Positions 25,444 to 39,316 of a stretch of 39,337 bases of DNA are shown here, in pieces. The stretch is from an uncultured Lachnospiraceae bacterium. GTDB lineage: Bacteria > Bacillota > Clostridia > Lachnospirales > Lachnospiraceae. The notes beneath the pieces were generated by a model. It made no database searches and was not told where the DNA came from. It saw only the letters and a list, made by a program, of their open reading frames with translations. Made by a program: the position numbers and the translations under genes. The stretch spans positions 1 through 39,337 of the forward strand of contig CALWRE010000204.1 of the NCBI GenBank assembly GCA_944383835.1. The letters run 5' to 3'. Position 1 is the first letter of the stretch. Each line of letters starts with the position of its first letter.

Positions 25444-27303
25444 TCACAAGCCGGCCAGGCGGCAGAGGGAGGCGATGGCGATGCAGAGAACCGCTCCCGC
25501 CAGGGTGGGAATCGCGGCGGCAAGGAGGGTCCAGCGCAGGCTCCCGGTTTCCTTCTTGATTGTCAGGCAGGTGGTGGAGCAGGGCCAGTGGAACAGGCAG
25601 AAGGTCATGGTGCACAGGGCGGTGGTGAGGGTCCAGCCATTGGCGGTGAGGATGGAGCGAAGGCTCTCCAGGCTGTCGTAGTCGGTCAGGGTGCCGGCAG
25701 AGAGGTAGCACATCAGGATGATGGGCAGTACGATCTCATTGGCAGGCCAGCCCAGGATAAAAGCGGCCAGGATTACCCCGTCCATCCCCATCAGCCGCCC
25801 GAGGGGATCGAGGGCCAGACAGAGGTGGGAGAGAAGGGTGCTTCCGTCCACCCAGATATGTGCCAGGGCCCAGATTAAAAGGCCTGCGGGAATGGCAATC
25901 ATAACGGCCCGCCCCAGGACGAACAGGGTGCGGTCCAGGACGGAACGGATCAGCACCCGCAGAAACTGGGGACGGCGATAAGGCGGCAGCTCCAGGGTAA
26001 AGGCCGAGGGCGTTCCCTTTAACAGGGTATGGGACAGCAGGGAGGATACGGCAAAGGTCATCAGGATGCTGAGAAGGATCAGTCCCGTCATGGCGGCGGC
26101 GGATAAGAGGGAGTGGGAAAGTCCGCCTCCCAGGCCGACGACAAACATGGAAAGCAGGGCCAGCAGGGTGGGAAAACGACCGTTGCAGGGGACAAAGGAG
26201 TTTGTCAGGATGGCAATCAGTCTCTCCCGCCCGGAGTCGATGATCCGGCAGCCGGTGACGCCGCAGGCATTGCAGCCAAAGCCCATGCACATGGTCAGGG
26301 CCTGTTTGCCGCAGGCACGGCACCGCTTAAAGCAGGGATCCAGGTTATAGGCGATGCGGGGCAGGTAGCCGAAATCTTCGAGAAGGGTAAAAAGGGGAAA
26401 GAAGATAGCCATCGGAGGGAGCATCACGGAGACCACCCAGGCGAGGACGCGGTACATTCCCTGAATCAGGAGGCCGGACAGCCAGGCGGGGGCGCCGGCG
26501 GCCTGGGCCAGATCCAATAGCTTGGCCTCGATTCCAAAGAGAAGGGACGAAAGCAGGGAGGAGGGATAGTTTGCCCCGCAGATCGTCAGCCAGAAGATGC
26601 CCAGGAGAAAGAGAAGCATCAGGGGGATGGCCGTTGCCGGACTGGTAAAGAGGCGATCCAGCCGCCTGTCCCGTCCCCGCCTGTTCTGACCGGAAGAGCG
26701 CACCACCTCGGCGGCAATTTTTTCCGCCTGGGAGATAAAAGCCAGGGAGGTTTCTTCGTCAAACGGCGGCGCATCGCTCTGCGGTGAACGGTTTTGCAAA
26801 GCCTTGCTCTGCGATGAGCCGTTCGTCTCTGCCGCCTTTAATGCTGTCTCCCCGGAGGCTTCTTCGGAGGAACCTTCCGGGAGCTCTTTGCCGGGGCGGG
26901 ACGCCGAGGCTTTTTCGATTGCATCCAACAGGCGGTCGATTCCGTCCTTTCGCGCTGCGCTGGCGGAGACGACAGGGACGCCCAGAAGGAGGGAGAGGCG
27001 GGCAAAATCGATGGAGATTCCTTTGCGGGAGGCCTCGTCGCAGAGATTGACGCAGACGATGACCCGGCGGGTGATGGACAGAACCTGCAGAACCAGGTTC
27101 AGGCTGCGCTCCAGGCAGGTGGCGTCGCAGACTACCACGCAGGCGTCTGCCTGGCCGGAGCGGATAAAATCTCGGGCAATTTCTTCTTCGGCGGAATGGG
27201 CCAGCAGGGAGTAGGTTCCCGGCAGATCGATGATCGTATACTCCCGCCCCTTCCAGGAGACCATCCCCTGGGCGCAGGCCACGGTCTTCCCTGCCCAATT
27301 TCC
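25444..27303 (-). pseudogene. feoB: Ferrous iron transporter FeoB, 5' end removed by prophage integration
   Basis: FeoB is a membrane ferrous iron importer with an N-terminal G domain. The surviving frame begins at Gly-Asn-Trp (27,295-27,303) and is open to the stop, about 619 codons. It keeps G3 DLPGTYSL, G4 NLCDE, the FeoB membrane core with two gate regions (for example MGFGCNACGVTGCRIID) and SFVPCNGRFPT. The roughly 30 codons normally before GNW, including the GxPNxGKT P-loop (G1), are absent. Just upstream is an in-frame TAA (27,310-27,312) and then the phage recombinase gene. A GTG at 27,282 could start a 612-aa protein without a P-loop, but there is no host promoter. The missing 5' end should lie at the far prophage end, outside the window. 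Precise excision would restore the gene. Confidence 0.9.
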
Positions 27304-27335
27304 GGTCGGTTAATATTAGTTACCGGTAAAACTTT
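27285..27335. other. Prophage left attachment site (attL) region
   Basis: Homology to feoB ends at about 27,303 and the recombinase stop lies at 27,337, so the crossover is within these ~50 bp. An imperfect inverted repeat, TCCGGTCGGTTAATATTA followed by GTTACCGG, spans 27,301-27,327, as is usual in large serine recombinase sites. The exact core cannot be set without the other end. Confidence 0.75.
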
Positions 27336-27336
27336 A

Positions 27337-28743
27337 TTATAAAAAAATGATCTGATAGTCCCGTGTTCTGCCATGACTTTTGCTGATACGGATTTCTGAG
27401 ACAAAGGATCGCCAGAATTCTCTTTTCTCTTCATTGGTCATTTCGACATAAGCGGATTCAAAGTCGCTGTCTAAAATAGCCCGCAGATGGGAAAAGTCTT
27501 TTTCCTTTACTTCCTCTTCGGCCGGCAGGGATTCCAGTTGTGCTGTGAGCCGGGCCTTTTCAAGTTTATAGTTATCCAAGGAAATTCCTTCAGCTAAATA
27601 TAAATCCAAAAGCCTGCGGATTCTTTTCTCTATCGCAGCTCGTTGTTTTCCTGCTTGATTGGAGGCCTTCACAATCCGGGACTGGTAATCGGATATATAA
27701 GCACTAATCTCGTCTCGCAAATGGGTCAAAAGATATTCTTCGATTCTGACTTCCCGGATTTCTCCGCCATTGTCACAAGCTTTCGTGGTCTTCTTTGTGC
27801 GTTTAAAATGCGAACATTCATAGGCGTAGTAACGGTATCGGTATCCACGGCTGGAAGAGACATTGATGTGTCTACCTGCCATTTTATAGTGGCAAGTGGC
27901 GCAGACCAGGAGCCCGGAAAAAATATAGGGATAACGTTGGTTGGATTTAATGTTCTTTGATAGATTGCGCTGCACGGCGTCAAAAACTTCTTGGCTGACG
28001 CAGGGCTCACAGAAAGCAGTATTGTCTCGCTTTTTTCCAATATATGTTTCATTTTTTAGCATCACTTTGAGCCCCTGGATGGACAGGACAATGCCGTGTA
28101 CATCGTATAGCCTCCGCACCGTCCTATTCAAACTCCCAGAACTGATGTAAAAAGAAAATATATCGGCAGGTATATGAGCTGTTTCCGGATTGAGTACCAA
28201 GTGCTTATCCTTAATCATGTATCCAATCGGAACTTTGCCGGAGACCACTTCGCCGTTGGCAATCTTACTGCGGAACACAGAACGGACTCGCTCCGCACCG
28301 GTTTGTGCCTCCAGCTCTGCTATCATCATGCTCTGAGCCACAAACATGCGTCCAAAGGCTGTCTTTGTTTCAAACTGCGGCTGTTCGATGGCAACCCAGC
28401 TGACTCCGTGCTTTTCCAGGATAGCCTGGGTATTCAGGTAGTGCCGCAGATTGCGAAACCAGCGGTCAAGACGCTGGAAGAGGATCAACTGTACTTTACC
28501 AGTCTTTACATCTTCGTCTAACATTCGCTGCAGTTCATCCCGATCCAGCTTCTGCCCGGACACGCCGTCATCGATGTAGACTTTGTTCAGGACTATGTCG
28601 TCGTGGCTGTCGATATATCGGCGGCCGAGTTCTTCCTGGTTACGGATGGAGTCACCGAAAGCGGCCTGCTCATCGCTGCTGACACGAATATAGATATCGG
28701 CATAGGTAATGCCGGCAGGGGAGGAGGAAGGCAAAGAGGACAT
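27337..28743 (-). CDS. Large serine recombinase (phage integrase)
   Basis: The 468-aa protein starts at ATG 28,743 after AAAGGAG; an ATG nine codons earlier lacks a ribosome site. The resolvase-type catalytic domain has the nucleophile Ser in YIRVSSDEQ and the downstream LILFQRLDRWFRNLRHYLN. A recombinase domain (GEVVSGKVPIGYMI, SIQGLKVMLKNETYIGKK), a zinc-ribbon (GLLVCATCHYKMAGR...C), and a coiled-coil-like C-terminal region follow in the standard order. Serine integrases act directionally, so the phage can leave only with an excision factor. The gene ends about 35 bp from the feoB junction, which makes it the likely enzyme for this insertion. Confidence 0.93.
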   Translation of the reverse strand: MSSLPSSSPAGITYADIYIRVSSDEQAAFGDSIRNQEELGRRYIDSHDDIVLNKVYIDDGVSGQKLDRDELQRMLDEDVKTGKVQLILFQRLDRWFRNLRHYLNTQAILEKHGVSWVAIEQPQFETKTAFGRMFVAQSMMIAELEAQTGAERVRSVFRSKIANGEVVSGKVPIGYMIKDKHLVLNPETAHIPADIFSFYISSGSLNRTVRRLYDVHGIVLSIQGLKVMLKNETYIGKKRDNTAFCEPCVSQEVFDAVQRNLSKNIKSNQRYPYIFSGLLVCATCHYKMAGRHINVSSSRGYRYRYYAYECSHFKRTKKTTKACDNGGEIREVRIEEYLLTHLRDEISAYISDYQSRIVKASNQAGKQRAAIEKRIRRLLDLYLAEGISLDNYKLEKARLTAQLESLPAEEEVKEKDFSHLRAILDSDFESAYVEMTNEEKREFWRSFVSEIRISKSHGRTRDYQIIFL

Positions 28744-28763
28744 AGAGTGTCTCCTTTCTACGT

Positions 28764-28792
28764 TTGACAAATCGTTTATTCTGGCTTATAAT
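28764..28792 (+). promoter_or_regulatory. Consensus promoter for the antisense antitoxin RNA
   Basis: TTGACA (28,764-28,769), a 17-bp spacer and TATAAT (28,787-28,792) match the sigma-A consensus perfectly. Transcription runs toward the 3' end of the small toxin gene, away from the recombinase gene, and there is no protein gene in that direction. Confidence 0.85.
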
Positions 28793-29040: not shown

Positions 29041-29070
29041 AGTATATTATGGTGTCAAGGTGCTTTAAAA
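29041..29070 (-). promoter_or_regulatory. Candidate toxin promoter
   Basis: On the minus strand TATACT (29,041-29,046) has TTTAAA (4 of 6) 17 bp upstream. CATAAT, two bases earlier, aligns with the antitoxin -10 and is an alternative. The promoter is weaker than that of the antisense RNA, which suits an antitoxin made in excess. Confidence 0.5.
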
Positions 29071-29550
29071 ATCATCTCTCATGCTCAGCAGTCCCACCGT
29101 CGGCTCCAGCAGTAAGATATCATCGCCTACACGGACATACTGACCGTACTTCTGGCGATAGCCTTCAATAGCCATGCATAAAAATTCTTCTGTCACGCCC
29201 AGATAGTCCGCGATCTCTTCCTGTGATCGGAGACCTCGGCGCAGAGCTGCGGCGATCATGTGCAGATCGGCGCGGCGATGTGCGGCCAACATGCGGGCTT
29301 TGCGCTCCTGGCGGCGGTTCTGTGCGGATTCCATGTAAATGATGTTGCCGGCAGTCAAATCGTGGTGAGCTATTTCCTCCTCCAGAACGCATGCAGCAGC
29401 AGTGCTATTCGGTAGCTTTTTGCTCAAGGCGATTATTCCATCGCAATACAGCCCCTGTATCCGGTCGCTCTCAAAATCCCAATCGATCACATCAATTCCC
29501 TTGTCAGCGGCGGTCTGCCGCAACTGTTCAAAATCCTTCAATAATATCAT
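29065..29550 (-). CDS. ImmA/IrrE-like metallopeptidase family protein
   Basis: The 161-aa protein is encoded just after the cI-like repressor, the usual place for ImmA, which cleaves the phage repressor on induction. The signature helix is LEEEIAHHDLTAGNI, a phage variant of HExxH in which the first His is replaced by Glu (E-E-I-A-H-H). An N-terminal DGIIALSKKLPNSTAAACVL stretch and a C-terminal helix-turn-helix-like LRSQEEIADYLGVTEEFLCMA follow. The ATG at 29,550 is only two bases from AGGAGG, so the TTG at 29,541 may be the true start. Loss of the first His may mean reduced or altered catalysis. Confidence 0.8.
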   Translation of the reverse strand: MILLKDFEQLRQTAADKGIDVIDWDFESDRIQGLYCDGIIALSKKLPNSTAAACVLEEEIAHHDLTAGNIIYMESAQNRRQERKARMLAAHRRADLHMIAAALRRGLRSQEEIADYLGVTEEFLCMAIEGYRQKYGQYVRVGDDILLLEPTVGLLSMRDDF

Positions 29551-29588: not shown

Positions 29589-29903
29589 TCAGGACTTTCT
29601 TTTGCCGCGGACAAATTCAGCAAAATTGTAGATTTCTTTAAGTTCGTCCTCGGTATAGTCGTCGCCGTCGAAGTGGGCGGCAAGGGTGCTGGGGGTTTTT
29701 GGAGGATTTTGTTTATCGTCAAAATCATTTAAAGATAAGCCTAGAACCTTTGCTATTGCTTTTAATGTTTCCAGCTTAGGATCCTTAGTTGCCCCACTTA
29801 AAATCTTGTTCAGAGTACCGACGGGAACACCGGATTTTTCGGAGAGCTCTTCAGTTGTTAAGTTCATTTTCTTTTTGTATTCAGCAATTATTTCTAATCC
29901 CAT
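29589..29903 (-). CDS. cI-like XRE-family phage repressor
   Basis: The 104-aa protein (ATG 29,903 after AGAGGAG) has an N-terminal XRE helix-turn-helix (MNLTTEELSEKSGVPVGTLN, then ILSGATKDPKLETLKAIAKVL). A short acidic C-terminal part (about 70-104) ends KRKS. It is small for a lambda-type repressor and has no peptidase domain; ImmA-dependent repressors of Firmicutes phages are often this size. It faces three CCGTTAACGG-type operators and should keep the rightward early promoter off while sustaining or limiting its own. Confidence 0.88.
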   Translation of the reverse strand: MGLEIIAEYKKKMNLTTEELSEKSGVPVGTLNKILSGATKDPKLETLKAIAKVLGLSLNDFDDKQNPPKTPSTLAAHFDGDDYTEDELKEIYNFAEFVRGKRKS

Positions 29904-29932
29904 CGTTTGTCTCCTCTTCTTATTATAGAAAA

Positions 29933-29961
29933 ATTTTACCACCATTTATAAATGAGGTCAA
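29933..29961 (-). promoter_or_regulatory. Leftward promoter of the repressor operon
   Basis: On the minus strand TTGACC (29,956-29,961), a 17-bp spacer and TAAAAT (29,933-29,938) lie just upstream of the repressor gene; operator O1 is about 10 bp behind the -35. Confidence 0.75.
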
Positions 29962-30059: not shown

Positions 30060-30164
30060 ATGTATAGTTTTTTGGGTTCTTCCAAGTTTATGGTGGATAG
30101 CCCTAAATCAGCCCCCTTTTTACTGCTCCCAAAATGTCCTCAAATGCCGCCCCATAATCCTTAA
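30060..30164 (+). CDS. Hybrid 34-codon frame at the former first lytic gene position
   Basis: The ATG at 30,060 has a good AAAGGAG site from the phage early transcript. After about four codons the sequence becomes IS-derived and the frame ends at 30,164. The native first gene (a Cro-like protein is usual here) seems to have been displaced. I would not expect a functional product. Confidence 0.4.
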   Translation: MYSFLGSSKFMVDSPKSAPFLLLPKCPQMPPHNP

Positions 30165-30608
30165 TAACGCTCTGATTCCAGTGCGTCATGTGGTCAAAAT
30201 CTGTTTTGGGTGTTTCAGCCTTTCTCCCTGCTGACAAGAGTACCTTGCCACGGAGAATATCAAAATCGTAGCCCCGTCCATTATCAGATATGGAGCGTAT
30301 GACGCTGTTAAGCCCCTCGACAAAGGCATTGGTATATGGAGCGTCAAAGTAGTTGAAAATAGGTTTCCGGTGTCTCCTTACGGTAGATGCCAGCATCCAC
30401 CAACCATTAAAGTCTGAGTCGTTTGCTGGAATACTGCGTTGCCATTCCCGAAACGCTTTTTCGGCTTCACGGCGAGTAGAACAGTCATATATCCGGTAGA
30501 ATGATTCTTTGTCTGAACGTAGAAGCCCATATCATTATCATTCTGTTTGAAGTCGGTAACTTCAAACTCCGGGAGGTCGAGCATTTTTTCCATGAGAGGA
30601 TTGCTCAT
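30073..30608 (-). mobile_element. Remnant of an ISL3-family insertion sequence
   Basis: Two pieces of one transposase lie on the minus strand in different frames. The N-terminal ~37 residues (MEKMLDLPEFEVTDF, start 30,608) join, through an internal deletion and frame change near 30,495, to a C-terminal part with EAEKAFREWQRS, FNYFDAPYTNAFVEGLNS and GRGYDFDILRGKVLL, ending at 30,103. The TNAFVEGLN stretch is typical of ISL3 DDE transposases. About 250 of the usual ~400 residues are missing. The bases from about 30,073 (GGGTTCTTCCAAG) look like an IS end; no matching inverted repeat is visible at the other side. It cannot transpose on its own. Confidence 0.75.
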
Positions 30609-32528: not shown

Positions 32529-32705
32529 ATGGGAAGAATTACAGCGATTGTGGAAAGCGTCAACGAACCTGACATGAACAAAGTATTTGAGGCGCTTGCC
32601 CGGATCATTGGCCGACGCGAAGGCGTCGAAATCAAGGTACTCGATGTGCGCAAAAGGAAACCTGGTGATCCGCCGGGGATGTTTGTGGAAAAGAAGGGCG
32701 GTTGA
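32529..32705 (+). CDS. Small phage protein, unknown
   Basis: The 58-aa protein begins MGRITAIVESVNEPDMNKVF after AAAGGAGG, and ends in KKGG. A helix with LARIIGRREGVEIKVLDV follows the start. It opens the rightward early operon. The stop TGA sits in the loop of a hairpin (GGGCGG/CCGCCC, 32,696-32,712), as in the gene at 30,966. The 120 bases before it hold the leftward promoter of the previous pair and no clear rightward promoter. Confidence 0.7.
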   Translation: MGRITAIVESVNEPDMNKVFEALARIIGRREGVEIKVLDVRKRKPGDPPGMFVEKKGG

Positions 32706-33817: not shown

Positions 33818-35086
33818 GTGGGAATCAAGATCAACAAGCTTGAAATCGAGAACGTGAAGCGGATCAAGGCTGTCAAGGTCGAGCCGACAGCCAATGGGCT
33901 GACCATCATCGGAGGGAATAACAACCAAGGGAAAACCTCTGTACTGGACGCCATTGCCTGGGCCCTGGGCGGGGACCGGTACCGGCCGTCCCAGGCCCAG
34001 CGGGAAGGGTCCAGTATACCGCCTTACCTACACATTGTCATGGACAACGGCATAGTGGTGGAGCGTAAGGGGAAAAACAGCGACTTGAAGGTCACTGATC
34101 CGAGTGGCGTGAAGGCCGGCCAGCAGCTGCTCAATGAGTTTGTAGAGCAGCTTGCCCTGGACCTGCCCCGCTTTATGGAGGCGTCAGAGAAGGAAAAGGC
34201 ACAGACCCTCCTGCGGATCATCGGCGTGGGGGACCGGCTGGAACAGCTGGAACAGGAGGAGAAATCCCTATACAACGAAAGATTGGCGATCGGCCAGATC
34301 GCCGACCGGAAGAAAAAGTTTGCAGACGAGCAGCCGTACTATCCGGATGCGCCAAAAGAGCCGGTATCACCTTCGGAGTTGATCCGCCGGCAGCAGGACA
34401 TCCTGGCAAGGAATGGGGAGAACCAGCGCAAGCGTGCCCGGCTCCATGAACTGGAACAGAAGGCCCAGCGGATCATGGAGGAGCTGCGGGACCTCCTGCA
34501 GCAGCAGAAAGCAGTAGAAGCAGACCTGGCGGTTGCCCGCAAATCGGCAGAAAACCTGCAGGATGAATCCACGGCAGAGCTGGAGGCCAGCATTGCCAAC
34601 ATCGAGGAGATCAACCGCAAGGTCCGTGCAAACCTGGACAAAGATAAGGCGGAGACAGACGCCCAGGATTACAAAGACCAATATAACGCCCTGACCGGCA
34701 AGATCGAAGCGGCCCGGAAGGCTAAGACCGACCTGCTGTCCAGTGCAAAGATGCCTCTGCCCGGCCTGTCTGTAGAGGACGGCGAGCTGGTCTACCAGGG
34801 CCAGAAGTGGGACAACATGTCCGGGTCAGACCGGCTCAAAGTGGCAACGGCAGTCGTCCGGGAGCTGAACCCGAAATGCGGCTTTGTGCTCCTGGACAAG
34901 CTGGAGCAGATGGACCTGCAGACGCTGCAGGAGTTTGGCCGGTGGCTGGAGGCAGAGGGGCTGCAGGCTATCGCTACGCGAGTATCGACCGGCGGGGAGT
35001 GCTCGATCATCATTGAGGACGGATATGTGGCTGGCCAGGAAGCGCCGGCAGTAGGTACGGTAAAGAAATGGTCTACTGATTTTTAA
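33818..35086 (+). CDS. RecF/SbcC-like AAA ATPase of the phage recombination module
   Basis: The 422-aa protein starts at GTG 33,818 after GGGAGGAG. Its N-terminus is LEIENVKRIKAVKVEP, with Walker A GGNNNQGKTS (residues ~32-41) as in Rad50/RecF proteins. A central coiled coil (about 140-310, rich in Glu/Gln/Arg) is followed by SGSDRLKVATAVVREL (ABC signature-like) and FVLLDKLEQMD (Walker B-like, with Lys-Leu in place of the usual residues). It probably acts with the Sak4-like ATPase downstream in recombination or DNA end processing. No nuclease subunit is visible beside it. Confidence 0.85.
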   Translation: MGIKINKLEIENVKRIKAVKVEPTANGLTIIGGNNNQGKTSVLDAIAWALGGDRYRPSQAQREGSSIPPYLHIVMDNGIVVERKGKNSDLKVTDPSGVKAGQQLLNEFVEQLALDLPRFMEASEKEKAQTLLRIIGVGDRLEQLEQEEKSLYNERLAIGQIADRKKKFADEQPYYPDAPKEPVSPSELIRRQQDILARNGENQRKRARLHELEQKAQRIMEELRDLLQQQKAVEADLAVARKSAENLQDESTAELEASIANIEEINRKVRANLDKDKAETDAQDYKDQYNALTGKIEAARKAKTDLLSSAKMPLPGLSVEDGELVYQGQKWDNMSGSDRLKVATAVVRELNPKCGFVLLDKLEQMDLQTLQEFGRWLEAEGLQAIATRVSTGGECSIIIEDGYVAGQEAPAVGTVKKWSTDF

Positions 35087-35105: not shown

Positions 35106-36242
35106 ATGAACATTACACGAGGGCGCATTGGCGGCGCAAAAAAGATCGTGGTCTATGGCCCAGAGGGGATAGGCAAGTCTACCTTTGCCTCTTGTTTCCC
35201 AGACCCTGTCTTCATCGATACAGAAGGGAGTACCAAGGACATGGATGTGGCCAGGTTTGACAAGGCATCTTCTTGGGAAATGCTCCTGCAGCAGGTGAAG
35301 TATGTTATTGCCCATCCGGAGGTGTGCAGGACATTGGTGATAGACACGGCGGACTGGGCTGAACAGCTGGAGATCGAATCCCTTTGTGCCCAAAAAGGGT
35401 GGACAGGCCTGGAAGACGCCGGCTATGGCAAGGGATATACCTATAGCACGGAAACTTTTGGGCGTTTTTTGAACAGCCTGGAAGATGTCATCCGGAAAGG
35501 AATCCATGTGGTCATGACAGCCCACGCGCAGCTGCGCAAAGTAGAACTGCCGGAAGAAATGGGGGCCTATGACCATTGGGAGATGAAAACCAGCAAGAAG
35601 GTAGCCCCGATGATCCGCGAATGGGCGGATGCCGTGTTTTTTGCAAACTACAAGACCCGTGTCATCGAGGTGGACAAGAAGAAAAAAGCCCAGGGCGGGC
35701 AGCGGGTCATGTATACCACCCATACCCCGTTTTGGGATGCAAAGAATCGTTACGGGCTCCCGGAGGAGATGCCTTTTACGTATGACAGCATCCGCCATGT
35801 CATTGAAAAAGATATGGCTCCCCAAGCAGCGCCTGTAAACCAGGCAGCTGCAAGCCTTCAGAGGGATACTGAAAAGCCAGTTAAAACGGAACCGGCAAAG
35901 TTTATCCGGCAGGAGCCAGATACTTCCATGGATACCGCGCCAGCTGCCCCAGGGGAAAGCAGCGCCCCGGATCCTTTTACAGGAAACGGGCCGGAAAAGG
36001 GCAAAAGAGATCCGGATAAGCGGATCCCCAAGGCCTTGCGCGACTTGATGATCGCAGGGGATGTGGATGAATGGGATATCCAGGAAGTAGTCAACGACCG
36101 GCAGCCAGGGATTTTCCCCTTCGACATGCCTGTGCGGGACTACCCGCAGGATTTCATCAACGAATGGATTATCCCTAACTGGGCAAGGATTTTGGATTAT
36201 ATCAAAGAGATAAAAGAAAAAGAAGAAATACCATTCAATTAA
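35106..36242 (+). CDS. Sak4-like RecA-fold ATPase (AAA_24)
   Basis: The 378-aa protein has Walker A YGPEGIGKSTFA near residue 20, DTEGSTKDMD, a Walker B-like TLVIDTADW, and VVMTAHAQLRKVELPEE, the pattern of phage Sak4/AAA_24 single-strand annealing ATPases. Residues beyond ~240 are a proline- and acid-rich linker and a helical C-terminal part. It sits just before a DUF669 (candidate ssDNA-binding) gene, a common phage pair for recombination-dependent replication. Confidence 0.88.
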   Translation: MNITRGRIGGAKKIVVYGPEGIGKSTFASCFPDPVFIDTEGSTKDMDVARFDKASSWEMLLQQVKYVIAHPEVCRTLVIDTADWAEQLEIESLCAQKGWTGLEDAGYGKGYTYSTETFGRFLNSLEDVIRKGIHVVMTAHAQLRKVELPEEMGAYDHWEMKTSKKVAPMIREWADAVFFANYKTRVIEVDKKKKAQGGQRVMYTTHTPFWDAKNRYGLPEEMPFTYDSIRHVIEKDMAPQAAPVNQAAASLQRDTEKPVKTEPAKFIRQEPDTSMDTAPAAPGESSAPDPFTGNGPEKGKRDPDKRIPKALRDLMIAGDVDEWDIQEVVNDRQPGIFPFDMPVRDYPQDFINEWIIPNWARILDYIKEIKEKEEIPFN

Positions 36243-36263: not shown

Positions 36264-36728
36264 ATGGCAATGAATGAAGAGATGAACCGCGAATACGACT
36301 GGGATGATGAGATCGAGAACCGGTCAGGGTTTGTTGATATCCCGGAAGGGGAGTATGAGTTTTTTGTAGACCATTATGAGAGGGCAAAGGTTGGCGGCGA
36401 TGGCAAGTATGCCGGCCAGAATAAGGCGGTTGTCTACTGCAACATCCTTATGGAAAATGTGCCCCAGGACCAGGGCCCGCAGCTTAAGTCAAACCTGATC
36501 TTAAATAAGGCGTTCGACTGGAAACTGGCGCAGTTTTTTATCAGTATCGGCCTTATGAAGGACGAGGAGGGGGCCACCCTGAAAATGAACTGGAACCTTG
36601 TCGGAGGTACCCGCGGGCGCTGCCGCATTGAGCACAAGCCCAACCTGAACGATGCTACAAAAACGCATCCGGAGATCGTTGAGTTTTTAAAACCGCGGAA
36701 AGATAAGAAATGGGGCGCGGGTTTCTGA
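36264..36728 (+). CDS. DUF669 protein, probable ssDNA-binding protein
   Basis: The 154-aa protein follows AGGAGG. Features are DIPEGEYEFFVDHYERAKVG, NKAVVYCNILMEN, LKSNLILNKAFDWKLAQFFISIG and GGTRGRCRIEHKPN, which match DUF669, an OB-fold-like family linked to Sak4 or Sak3 genes in phages. The stop is overlapped by the helicase start (TGATG). Confidence 0.88.
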   Translation: MAMNEEMNREYDWDDEIENRSGFVDIPEGEYEFFVDHYERAKVGGDGKYAGQNKAVVYCNILMENVPQDQGPQLKSNLILNKAFDWKLAQFFISIGLMKDEEGATLKMNWNLVGGTRGRCRIEHKPNLNDATKTHPEIVEFLKPRKDKKWGAGF

Positions 36729-38341
36729 TGGGAGCGATGGCTTTGCGGCCATACCAGGAAGAGGCTAAGGCCGCAGTATTTGAAAAATGGTCGGAGGGGA
36801 CAAAGCACACCCTGCTGGTCCTCCCGACCGGGACCGGCAAAACGATTGTCTTTGCCGCTATCACAGAAACCTGCGTCCGCCATGGTGAACGCATCCTGAT
36901 CCTGGCACACCGTGGTGAGCTGCTGGACCAGGCATCCGATAAGATCAAGAAGGCAACCGGTCTAAACTGTGCCGTTGAAAAAGCAGAACAGACTTGCCGG
37001 GGCTCTTTTTACCGTATTGTCGTGGGATCTGTCCAGACCCTGATGCGGGAACGGCGTTTATCGGGTTTCCCGAAAGATTACTTCCAGACGATCGTCGTTG
37101 ACGAGGCCCACCACTGTATCTCTGACAGCTACCAGAAGGTGCTGCAGTATTTTTCGGGCGCCAAGGTGTTGGGGGTGACCGCAACGCCGGACCGTGGGGA
37201 TATGCGTGACCTGGGTGAATATTTTGAAAATATCGCTTACGAGTATACACTGCCCAGGGCCATCAAAGAGGGATACCTTTCCCCGATCAAAGCACTGACA
37301 ATCCCCCTAAAGATCGATATCAGCCAAGTGGGGATGCAAAGCGGCGATTTTAAAAGCGGGGAGTTGGGGACAGCACTGGACCCATACCTGGAACAGATCG
37401 CGGTGGAAATGGAAAAGCATTGCCGGGACCGGAAAACGGTGGTGTTCCTCCCCTTGGTCAAGACGAGCCAGAAATTCCGGGAGATCCTTTGCGCCCATGG
37501 GTTCCGGGCTGCAGAGGTCAATGGGAACAGCGAAGACCGGGCAGAAATCCTGGCAGCATTTGACCGTGGGGAGCATAACGTGCTGTGCAACTCTATGCTT
37601 TTAACGGAGGGATGGGACTGCCCGTCGGTGGATTGCGTTATCGTCCTCCGGCCCACTAAGGTGCGGAGCCTTTACTGCCAGATGGTAGGGCGCGGCACCC
37701 GGTTGTCCCCAGGGAAAGACCATCTTTTGCTTTTGGATTTTTTATGGATGACCGACCGGCATGAGCTTTGCCATCCGGCTGCCCTGATCTGCAGCAATCC
37801 CGAGGTTGCCCAGCAGATGACAAAGAACCTGGAGGATTCTGCAGGCGTTGCTATGGACATTGAGGAGGCAGCACGAGAGGCTTCTGAAGATGTACAGAGC
37901 CAGCGGGAAGAGGCGCTGGCGAAACGCCTGGCAGAGCAAAAATATAAAAAAAGCCGGCTTGTGGACCCGCTGCAGTGTGAAATGTCTATCCAAGCTCAAG
38001 ACCTGTCGGATTATGTGCCGACTTTTGGTTGGGAGATGGCACCGCCGTCCGACCAGCAACTGAAAGCTTTGGTGAAAAACGATATCAATCCGGAAATGGT
38101 AGATAATGCCGGCAAGGCGTCCCTGTTGCTGGATCATCTGGCAAAACGCGGCGCCCTTGGCTTATCGAGCCCGAGGCAAATTCGGCAGTTAGAGCAGCGT
38201 GGCTTTCAGGATGTGGCATCGTGGAGCAGGGAGCAGGCAAAACGGCTGATCGACCGGATTGCGGCTAATGGCTGGCGTACGCCTAGGGATATCAATCCCC
38301 GGACATATGTCCCGCCGGCAGAGAAATCAGTGGAGTGGTAA
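36728..38341 (+). CDS. Phage DEAH-box helicase (superfamily 2)
   Basis: The protein is ~537 aa from ATG 36,728, which overlaps the preceding stop; ATG 36,737 is equally possible. SF2 motifs are in order: LRPYQEEAK (Q-like), LPTGTGKT (I), ILAHRGELL (Ia), VVDEAHHC (II), GVTATP (III), MLLTEGWDCPSVDCVI (V) and YCQMVGRGTRL (VI). The C-terminal ~150 residues hold a helical region with SDQQLKALVKNDI. It should unwind DNA at the phage replication fork. Confidence 0.93.
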   Translation: MGAMALRPYQEEAKAAVFEKWSEGTKHTLLVLPTGTGKTIVFAAITETCVRHGERILILAHRGELLDQASDKIKKATGLNCAVEKAEQTCRGSFYRIVVGSVQTLMRERRLSGFPKDYFQTIVVDEAHHCISDSYQKVLQYFSGAKVLGVTATPDRGDMRDLGEYFENIAYEYTLPRAIKEGYLSPIKALTIPLKIDISQVGMQSGDFKSGELGTALDPYLEQIAVEMEKHCRDRKTVVFLPLVKTSQKFREILCAHGFRAAEVNGNSEDRAEILAAFDRGEHNVLCNSMLLTEGWDCPSVDCVIVLRPTKVRSLYCQMVGRGTRLSPGKDHLLLLDFLWMTDRHELCHPAALICSNPEVAQQMTKNLEDSAGVAMDIEEAAREASEDVQSQREEALAKRLAEQKYKKSRLVDPLQCEMSIQAQDLSDYVPTFGWEMAPPSDQQLKALVKNDINPEMVDNAGKASLLLDHLAKRGALGLSSPRQIRQLEQRGFQDVASWSREQAKRLIDRIAANGWRTPRDINPRTYVPPAEKSVEW

Positions 38342-38344
38342 AGA

Positions 38345-39316
38345 ATGATGGAACGCAAAACAGACTTAAAAGAACTGTTACAATATATCGACCCGTCCCA
38401 GTGTTCCTACCAGGAGTGGGTCAATGTAGGGATGGCCCTTAAGCATGAGGGCTATAGCCCTGCAGACTGGGAATCCTGGAGTGCACGAGATCCTGGCCGG
38501 TACCATTCGGGGGAGTGCGGCCGCAAATGGAAAAGCTTTCAGGAAAACACTTCCGAGATCGTGACCGGCGGGACGATTTTCCAGATGGCTGTGCAGGGTG
38601 GGTTTGTTCCGATGTCCAACCAGGGATTGGACTGGGATGCTGAGATCACTGCGCCGGGCGTTATTGTGGCGCCGGGCTGGGTAGAAGGGCAGGAAGTCAT
38701 GGAGCCAAAAAGCTGGCATCCCGGTAAAGAAGTGTCCAGATATATTGAAACGCTATTTGAGCCTGGTGAGGTGATCGGCTATGTAATGCAGTCCCGGCTG
38801 GACGAGGAAAAAAACAAGTACATCCCTAGGAACAAGGGGGTCTATACCCTGACTGCTGGGGAGGTGCTGGAGAAGCTCAGCAAGCACGGAGATGATTTGG
38901 GAGCCGCGCTGGGGGATTATGATCCGAAAGCGGGAGGTTGGATCCGATTTAATCCCTTAGATGGGAAAGATGTCCGAAACAGCAATGTAACGGAATACCG
39001 GTATGCCCTGGTAGAATCAGATGATCTGGAGATTGAAAAACAGAACACGATTATTCGAGAGCTGGAACTGCCGGTGGCGGTACTGATGTTTTCTGGCGGG
39101 AAAAGCATCCATGCCATTGTCCGGGTAGACGCGGCCGATTATAAAGAATATCAAAAAAGGGTGGAATATCTCTACCAAGTCTGTGAGAAAAATGGGCTCA
39201 AGGTAGACACCCAGAACAAGAACCCTTCCCGACTTTCCCGGTTGCCGGGATGTGTCCGGGGGGACAAGAAACAGTTTATCATCGACACCAATATTGTTGT
39301 ACGGCGAATTAAATGA
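38345..39316 (+). CDS. Phage primase, PriCT-2 plus AEP-like domain
   Basis: The 323-aa protein starts with a PriCT-2 type domain (about 5-80: YQEWVNVGMALKHEG, DWESWSARDPGRYHSGEC). A second domain has ALVESDDLEIEKQN, MFSGGKSIHAIVRVDA and NPSRLSRLPGCVRG, stretches found in archaeo-eukaryotic-type prim-pol enzymes. It probably makes primers for phage DNA replication beside the helicase. The order PriCT-2 before AEP is less usual. ATG 38,345 and 38,348 are both possible. Confidence 0.85.
   Translation: MMERKTDLKELLQYIDPSQCSYQEWVNVGMALKHEGYSPADWESWSARDPGRYHSGECGRKWKSFQENTSEIVTGGTIFQMAVQGGFVPMSNQGLDWDAEITAPGVIVAPGWVEGQEVMEPKSWHPGKEVSRYIETLFEPGEVIGYVMQSRLDEEKNKYIPRNKGVYTLTAGEVLEKLSKHGDDLGAALGDYDPKAGGWIRFNPLDGKDVRNSNVTEYRYALVESDDLEIEKQNTIIRELELPVAVLMFSGGKSIHAIVRVDAADYKEYQKRVEYLYQVCEKNGLKVDTQNKNPSRLSRLPGCVRGDKKQFIIDTNIVVRRIK

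Follow-up and report, generated by a model that had tools for sequence, protein, structure and literature searches.

A prophage-split feoB gene in Lachnospiraceae: repeated insertion by large serine recombinases and a possible link to sporulation

A 39,337-nucleotide contig of an uncultured Lachnospiraceae bacterium (CALWRE010000204.1; "the window" below means this whole stretch) carries a gene for the ferrous iron transporter FeoB in which a prophage has replaced the 5' end, with the prophage's large serine recombinase (LSR) gene adjoining the break. Related LSRs lie at the same feoB codon in other genera, and LSRs of other groups split the gene elsewhere. From sequence comparison, we put at about 0.7 the probability that this feoB is a mother-cell sporulation gene rebuilt by excision of the element within it, as sigK is from skin, spsM from SPbeta and gerE from gin, and that the window holds a phage-borne, probably recent case. 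An initial annotation, made from the window alone, had proposed an iron-uptake switch controlled by prophage excision and had likened it to sporulation genes split by phages. The likening was apt; restoration of feoB by excision is supported mainly by relatives of the window gene, and the gate is probably sporulation, not iron.

Results

The interrupted feoB of the window

The minus-strand feoB frame runs without interruption from Thr-Gly-Asn-Trp (27306) to the stop at 25444. Missing are the first 35 codons, which include the P-loop (about 30 codons by the initial annotation, which had otherwise described the replaced P-loop part correctly). Intact, phage-free copies, which that annotation had proposed looking for in relatives, occur in two genomes of the same genus, G001 and G003, where feoB is whole and the P-loop GNPNVGKST is present; in G001, 35 codons precede the Thr that matches the first feoB codon of the window. 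The P-loop loss in the window is due to the insertion. The remaining protein is identifiable as FeoB from its G domain, Gate and FeoB_C domains; the FeoB_N profile match begins at position 24 in one search and 28 in another, and the score against TIGR00437 is 330 bits, with a cut-off of 315.65.

The LSR gene does end beside feoB, although the distance is 30 bp, from its stop codon (27337-27339) to the feoB Thr codon, and not the 35 bp first given. In-frame stops stand ahead of the junction (AAC TAA TAT TAA CCG ACC GGA AAT TGG). The element sequence next to feoB is very similar to the right junction of an independent Hungatella hathewayi prophage, with ATATTAACCG-ACCGG identical, and a chimeric assembly at this point is therefore unlikely. 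The central dinucleotide of the crossover core in the window is predicted to be AC, the first two bases of the Thr codon.

Ratios of nonsynonymous to synonymous substitution rates (dN/dS) for the window gene are 0.131 and 0.158 against G001 and G003, versus 0.105 for the G001-G003 pair. These values are near normal, so the phage would be recent, or excise often enough, or both.

Three further full-length FeoBs are encoded in the host, on contigs C76, C47 and C191, so iron import need not stop when the window copy is split. Together with the sigma-K-type promoter described below, they weaken the idea of a general switch of ferrous iron uptake, which is not supported. A full-length second feoB had also been named as a sign that the window copy was truncated before the phage entered. 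Such paralogues exist, but the C47 and C191 proteins are only 27-41% identical to the window copy and are thus other paralogues, no proof that it was dead earlier.

Site 1 as a repeated target

A search of 397 genomes of the family with the window LSR (E<=1e-60) gave ten genomes, our own included. In six of the nine others (G076, G089, G282, G328, G350 and G398, from five genera) the LSR adjoins the same feoB codon; the remaining three, the least similar, have no piece of this feoB beside it. A scan of named genomes fetched 36 LSR loci, 34 of which were examined (L284, at 27% identity, and L285, at 38%, stand outside the count). The insertion is in feoB in 21 of the 34, with L255 counted there from its attachment-site (att) sequence alone, and all 18 LSRs in named genomes with at least 47% identity lie at this codon, QHT/GNW, hereafter site 1. 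The other 13, at 40-46% identity, are inserted elsewhere. These counts bear out the earlier description of a serine-recombinase prophage at a conserved feoB site and the suggestion that this codon stretch is a reliable phage target. By eye, sister LSRs at 45-46% identity (L265, L267-L271) lie in an ABC-transporter ATPase gene, near Walker B.

The core is ACCGG or ACGGG at both junctions in all six relatives and corresponds to the Thr-Gly codons of Q-H-T-G-N-W. A feoB 5' fragment is present in each of the six, on a separate contig in G089 and G398. The arms of the phage attachment site (attP) appear to be inverted; the best of five centres tested was A/C in 6/6, with 11 to 20 of 26 positions matching, and the match is above all 2,000 shuffles in three relatives (G398, G328 and G089). 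Core codon phase agrees on both sides in the relatives, as rebuilding in frame by precise excision would need; one side is readable in the window. A flipped insertion was considered for H. hathewayi and Clostridium sp. 12(A), where the LSR lies at the other end of the element. The right-hand att arm of H. hathewayi matches that of the window, so there only the gene order differs.

An LSR alignment as query (A1) brought out further relatives; with a single LSR as query, viral contigs had yielded one relative, at 39%, and genome contigs had yielded no match. Among ten viral contigs with an LSR at 48-54% identity, three have the feoB 5' part beside the LSR (L168, L169, L172), one from IMG/VR (L174) has an unbroken attP with the feoB core, and six end at the LSR gene and are uninformative. 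Symmetry of the L174 attP is best at the A/C centre, at 17 of 26, with 4-11 for other centres. LSRs of annotated phages reach a top identity of 43% (Enterococcus phiFL phages).

Further split sites and the genus Lacrimispora

A survey of the family used intact FeoB as query, and the clade tally was counted by hand. Among the matches listed, 73 family genomes have this feoB clade: 55 intact, 13 interrupted (own included) and 5 unclear (G352, G303, G231, G007, G078), with a second broken copy in G208 left out. The gene is split at three sites besides site 1, by other LSRs. Site 2 lies before Cys-Met-Gly-Phe-Gly-Cys or a variant and is split in G124, G339, G234, G084, G271, G230 and G350, and outside the family in G052. 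In most of these genomes LSRs of another group stand at the site-2 junction; the LSR of G271 is internal to the element, that of G234 is fragmented, and that of G084 lies next to the 5' half. A split at site 3 (NGRFP) occurs in G350 and one at site 4 (codon ~528) in G076. Clostridium sp. 12(A), like H. hathewayi, has several inserts in one feoB.

The genus of G350, whose named members are mostly Lacrimispora (family Lachnospiraceae), has the gene split in 22 of 25 genomes among the matches listed. On the same basis, the N-terminal part ends at site 2 in 20 genomes; the C-terminal side starts at site 2 in 19, among them G350, G580, G641, G720, G729 and G730. Site 3 is also split in nine, and the middle feoB part is absent from the assembly in G696 and G723. 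G726 (67% complete) and G733 (82% complete) have no clade copy among the matches listed. In G727 only an intact paralogue was seen (58-64% identical); G719 and G720 carry this paralogue in addition to the split gene. As a control, 51 of 54 canonical FeoB loci of these genomes, among the matches listed and tallied by hand, are open for at least 666 codons, the exceptions being G731 C92, G732 C395 and G739.

The site-2 LSR is co-inherited with feoB in Lacrimispora. Protein distances of the LSR and the feoB C-terminal half correlate with a Mantel r of 0.96, which 0 of 20,000 permutations reach, over the 12 of 22 split species with a site-2 C half and a readable LSR in the locus (G350, G580 and G641 stand outside this set). 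Inside two groups r is 0.92-0.94. G739, whose LSR is in two frames and whose CcdA-TlpA gene is also broken, was kept; r is 0.97 without it. Both gene halves and the LSR are under purifying selection. Over nine pairs from 11 species, dN/dS is 0.03-0.11 for the feoB halves, 0.05-0.10 for the cargo gene, and 0.16-0.18 for the LSR where its synonymous divergence (dS) is unsaturated (saturated in 3 of the 9 pairs). The dS values of LSR, cargo and feoB lie within about twofold of each other across the nine pairs; for G721-G722 they are 0.38, 0.29 and 0.34. The pair G350-G641, in which feoB is split at sites 1, 2 and 3 in both members, has a pooled dN/dS of 0.076 (0.060-0.095) over all pieces, with no stops, at a dS of 1.3. 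A gene dead for so long would have decayed. One stop occurs in the N piece of G719, in the stretch cut from upstream of its site-1 junction.

The elements at site 2 are uniform in several respects. A gene for a CcdA-TlpA fusion is carried by 11 of 11 examined, and in at least four a VanW-type gene comes after it, identified in three of these from sequence likeness alone. The core ATG is in the same phase on either side in 11/11, and the arms match at 14-17 of 18 positions in 11/11, with shuffled maxima of 11-13. A block upstream of the LSR leads into an ORF of 47-51 amino acids (aa) in five of the 11 and straight into the LSR in six. On inspection of the sequences (L312-L322), this upstream block is conserved as GTATATGGTACAAACC..GAATAAGATTTT..CAGGAGGTG, with no sigma factor assignable to it. 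In the sequences of these loci that were inspected, the CcdA-TlpA gene has ahead of it a TTGACA/TATAGT-like promoter with a palindrome like CTGTAACT..AGTACAG.

Promoter and sporulation

The -10 form of sigma-K promoters is CATANNNTA. The motif AC-N17-CATATGTTAGGATATGGAAAC (core AC-N17-CATATGTTA) stands upstream of feoA in 20/20 Lacrimispora regions aligned, out of 21; G734 was left out for its short upstream region, yet has the motif in a separate scan. The strict motif occurs in 41 of 75 clade upstream regions, many from close relatives, versus 4 of 51 other loci and 1.7-2.0% of shuffles. Outside Lacrimispora it is commoner in interrupted clade genes, at 8/12 versus 10/38 (p 0.017, relatedness uncorrected), or 8/13 versus 10/38 (p 0.041, likewise uncorrected) when the interrupted, motif-less L278 is included; the 38 comparison genes include four of unclear state (L023, L030, L152, L154).

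In Clostridioides difficile, sigma-K promoters have AC at -35 and a -10 such as CATATAAT (PMC3789822), and the Lacrimispora motif fits such a promoter. According to Table 2 of that paper, feoA-feoB of C. difficile (CD1518-CD1517) belongs to the sigma-K regulon, with a value of 0.05 in a sigK mutant and a sigma-K promoter. From the promoter sequence and this published transcriptome we infer a link of feoB to sporulation. Known intervening elements, as described in PMC5025042, PMC5595907 and PMC4191935, sit in sporulation genes and are excised during sporulation, and for the elements in feoB too sporulation seems a more likely trigger than iron.

In L010 and L011 the stretch from the promoter-like block to the start of feoB contains a conserved inverted repeat, AGAGGAAgcgctgcgcctgcagtgTTTCCTCT, a possible attenuator.

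Contig ends that suggest excision

Two assemblies break at positions that correspond to att sites. In [Clostridium] aerotolerans DSM 5434 (G696), contig C37 corresponds exactly to the site-1 element. Its first base is the first that attL and attP share, its last base the last that attR and attP share, and there is a 95-base overlap with the feoB 5' contig, such as assembly with K=96 would leave. In G723, the start of contig C82 coincides with the first base that attB and attR of site 2 share; the element contig C137 opens with 21 bases of left flank and has a 21-base overlap with C82; and the end of contig C6 coincides with the last base that attB and attL of site 1 share, attL being taken from the relative G738. 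The breaks strongly suggest that integrated and excised forms coexist in both assemblies, and DNA with both forms in it would be their simplest cause.

Elements, small partner ORFs and prophage genes

Elements at site 1 range widely in size. H. hathewayi DSM 13479 (G076) has a 45-kb prophage there and, at codon ~528, a second insert of 70 kb with three recombinase-like stretches at its end; on contig C1 of this genome (1194638-1312679, L104-L107) the two inserts are seen in one feoB, at codon ~38 and codon ~528. Inserts of only 2.2 kb, with an LSR and few small ORFs, occur in Clostridium sp. MCC353 (G282) and a Lachnospiraceae bin (G328). These look like minimal elements (L110, 3483-5669; L111, 6920-9112), consisting of an LSR, a ~47-aa ORF and one other small gene.

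An ORF of about 48 aa recurs near LSRs of this clade, the two smallest elements included, and its relatives accompany some LSRs located in other genes too; it matches no Pfam family. The 72-aa CD1234 is described as the directionality factor of the skin LSR of C. difficile (PMC5025042). By analogy, the 58-aa ORF of the window is a candidate recombination directionality factor. In Clostridium sp. Marseille-P2415 (G735, L326), two partial feoB N-terminal parts lie close together, each near a copy of a ~49-aa ORF, which suggests duplication at the site.

Within the contig the window prophage is represented by its early region (Table 1), and the same-site element of H. hathewayi has terminase, portal, capsid and tail sheath genes. 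The window recombinase has the Resolvase N-terminal, Recombinase and zinc-ribbon domains of an LSR, and an ATG at 28743 may be its real start. Two short ORFs at 30103-30608, within the prophage, resemble by eye fragments of an insertion-sequence transposase.

Table 1. Features of the window, with feoB codons numbered after the intact gene of G001.
Feature	Position	Strand	Remarks
feoB 3' part	25444..27306	-	620 codons, Thr36 to stop
Crossover core ACCGG, common to feoB and element	27302..27306	-	From junctions of six relatives
Element half of attachment site, GTTTTACCGGTAACTAATATTAACCG	27307..27332	-	Resembles H. hathewayi junction
Large serine recombinase (integrase), 477 aa from TTG	27337..28770	-	Resolvase, Recombinase, Zn_ribbon_recom; phrog_95 integrase
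ImmA/IrrE-type metallopeptidase	29065..29550	-	PF06114; phrog_87
XRE-type repressor	29589..29945	-	88% identity over 65 aa to ORF of H. hathewayi feoB prophage
58-aa ORF with Shine-Dalgarno sequence	32529..32705	+	Relatives in the other site-1 elements examined
Phage AAA ATPase	33818..35086	+	phrog_1499
Sak4-like ssDNA annealing protein	35106..36242	+	AAA_24; phrog_124
Phage protein, function unassigned (phrog_2698)	36264..36728	+	phrog match
Phage DEAD/ResIII helicase	36710..38341	+	Domain and phrog matches
PriCT-2 primase-type protein	38345..39316	+	Contig ends just after, inside prophage

Discussion

The mechanism we propose would run as follows. The LSR of a temperate phage would insert the phage at one set position in feoB, which cuts the gene behind codon 35 and takes the P-loop off the larger part. 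On the circular phage, attP would consist of two inverted arms around ACCGG and so mimic the Thr-Gly codons of feoB. The LSR, with a small partner protein, could reverse the integration and rebuild feoB in frame. This feoB would be expressed from the sigma-K-type promoter in the mother cell. Because of such expression, the gene may be an old and repeated home for elements in this family: since the mother cell dies, the germ line could carry feoB in split form and excision could restore it on demand, the arrangement known from sigK and skin. The insertion, its site, the repeated targeting and the promoter motif are observed directly; the mother-cell timing, the role of the directionality factor and the capacity of the window phage still to excise are predictions from them.

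For Lacrimispora we favour, with somewhat less assurance than the general account, a stronger form of it. The ferrous-iron transporter gene would be one that Lachnospiraceae rearrange in development. In this genus the germ line would have carried the split from early on, and each sporulating mother cell would restore the gene through one to three independent LSR excisions, with DNA recombination gating the import of iron into that cell. At least four LSR groups would have converged on different codons of the gene, in elements that range from whole phages to minimal ones of 2.2 kb with little besides an LSR and a ~48-aa partner.

Several observations weigh against rebuilding by excision during sporulation. 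The feoB 5' part was not found in the host assembly (244 contigs, 86.6% complete) by a search with the N-terminus of the relatives, whose 20 matches all lie within longer frames (248-837 codons) of other GTPases; the window contig ends inside the phage, and the far prophage end is absent. The gene found upstream of feoB in relatives here stands at the very start of contig C67, so the missing piece and the far phage end would fall in an assembly gap. The window gene is slightly richer in nonsynonymous change than its intact relatives, and some relaxation after insertion is possible. The attP arm match lies within the shuffle range in G076, G282 and G350. The same-genus relatives G001 and G003 have only a near match to the motif, AC-N17-CATATGCTG, and the strict motif is missing in 4 of 12 interrupted genes outside Lacrimispora (5 of 13 with L278); CD1517 of C. 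difficile may belong to another feoB clade, and the window host may form no spores. At site 2 the ~50-aa ORF precedes the LSR only in 5/11, so no universal partner is known for that site. The contig breaks in G696 and G723 could come from extra or tandem copies of the element, or from mixed strains if G723 is a metagenome bin.

Plain parasitism, in which the clade feoB is dispensable, LSR elements land there and the gene is lost, with the window as one recent loss, is the alternative we take most seriously, though we doubt it. The three other full FeoBs of the host speak for it, as do the patchy insertions outside Lacrimispora (13 of 73 clade-bearing genomes among the matches listed) and the presence of several inserts within a single feoB in both H. 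hathewayi and Clostridium sp. 12(A), as if the gene were unimportant. G696 has no match for codons ~44-374, for which a short contig may be absent from the data. For the window genome taken alone, simple parasitism is possible. It accords poorly with Lacrimispora, where the split genes are undecayed (dN/dS in either half no higher than about 0.11, in pairs whose dS reaches 1 or more), where the LSR is under selection too and the phase of the core codon is kept, and with the two assemblies in which excised and integrated forms seem to coexist. It is improbable (on a scale not exclusive of the other readings) that the elements were instead caught lately and independently in each species, the low dN/dS being inherited from a past with the gene whole. 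Such a history would suit the window, with its possibly recent insertion, and also the range of elements at site 1, from 2.2 kb to a 45-kb phage. At site 2 of Lacrimispora, however, the LSR tracks feoB divergence, the dS values of LSR, cargo and feoB agree as given above, and the same cargo gene is in every element examined. Recent insertion may thus account for the window and for many elements at site 1, yet not for site 2 of Lacrimispora.

A very unlikely explanation is that the pieces are made as separate chains which form a working FeoB, with the DNA never rebuilt. The site-2 C half does begin with ATG in 11/11, and in four elements the recombinase gene ends 12 bp ahead of it; but that ATG belongs to the crossover core and is therefore present of necessity, and no Shine-Dalgarno sequence precedes it in the junctions inspected. 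Moreover, a site-1 split would yield a P-loop peptide of ~40 aa, and a gene with splits at sites 1, 2 and 3 would give a protein that has to be assembled from four chains, among them one of ~41 residues.

If rebuilding during sporulation is correct, programmed gene rebuilding in sporulating bacteria would extend past regulatory and coat genes in individual species or strains: a gene for a metabolic transporter would serve different recombinases as a common landing site and be kept in split form throughout a genus, and iron import would be tied to late mother-cell development. It would also become a testable question whether such elements are parasites in a safe harbour, the genes of a doomed cell, or timing devices. 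For annotation, some feoB genes called pseudogene or truncated in these genomes may be functional. The 2.2-kb elements with their ~48-aa candidate partners are small recombination modules open to laboratory study.

Relation to known systems

The best NCBIfam match of the window LSR is XisF (NF041201), of the fdxN element in heterocyst-forming cyanobacteria, an element that belongs to a different development than sporulation. At 124.2 bits, far under the cut-off of 375, the window LSR is not XisF. In the titles and abstract openings listed by searches of the freely available literature (subscription papers and preprints lying outside it) we found no description of feoB as an insertion target, and novelty is to that extent only weakly supported. 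Neither "feoB" nor "ferrous" occurs in the main text of PMC10083194.

Closer likenesses come from sporulation. As described for skin in sigK of C. difficile (LSR CD1231, 72-aa CD1234; PMC5025042), an LSR element splits a gene, a small protein acts as partner (here a candidate) and there is a mother-cell link (here a probable one); by contrast, feoB encodes a metal transporter and not a sigma factor, four sites are used by different LSR groups, and excision is suggested here by contig ends. The gin element in gerE of Bacillus cereus ATCC10987, as reported in PMC5595907, is non-phage, and has serine recombinases and a partner (GirC, GirX), the gene being rebuilt in sporulation; the 2.2-kb and site-2 feoB elements look similar in kind, though gene and host differ and the site-2 split of feoB is genus-wide and vertically inherited. 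SPbeta in spsM of Bacillus subtilis is, by the account in PMC4191935, a real phage in a sporulation-phase gene, as the window and H. hathewayi elements are phages; the target differs. For yin in yabG of Clostridium botulinum, PMC10747680 reports integrated and circular forms together in pure culture, which here contig ends suggest; yin was described in one isolate, whereas feoB splits recur across genera. Relative to these sporulation intervening elements, what is new is a metabolic transporter gene as target, split at several sites by several recombinase groups, with a split inherited genus-wide.

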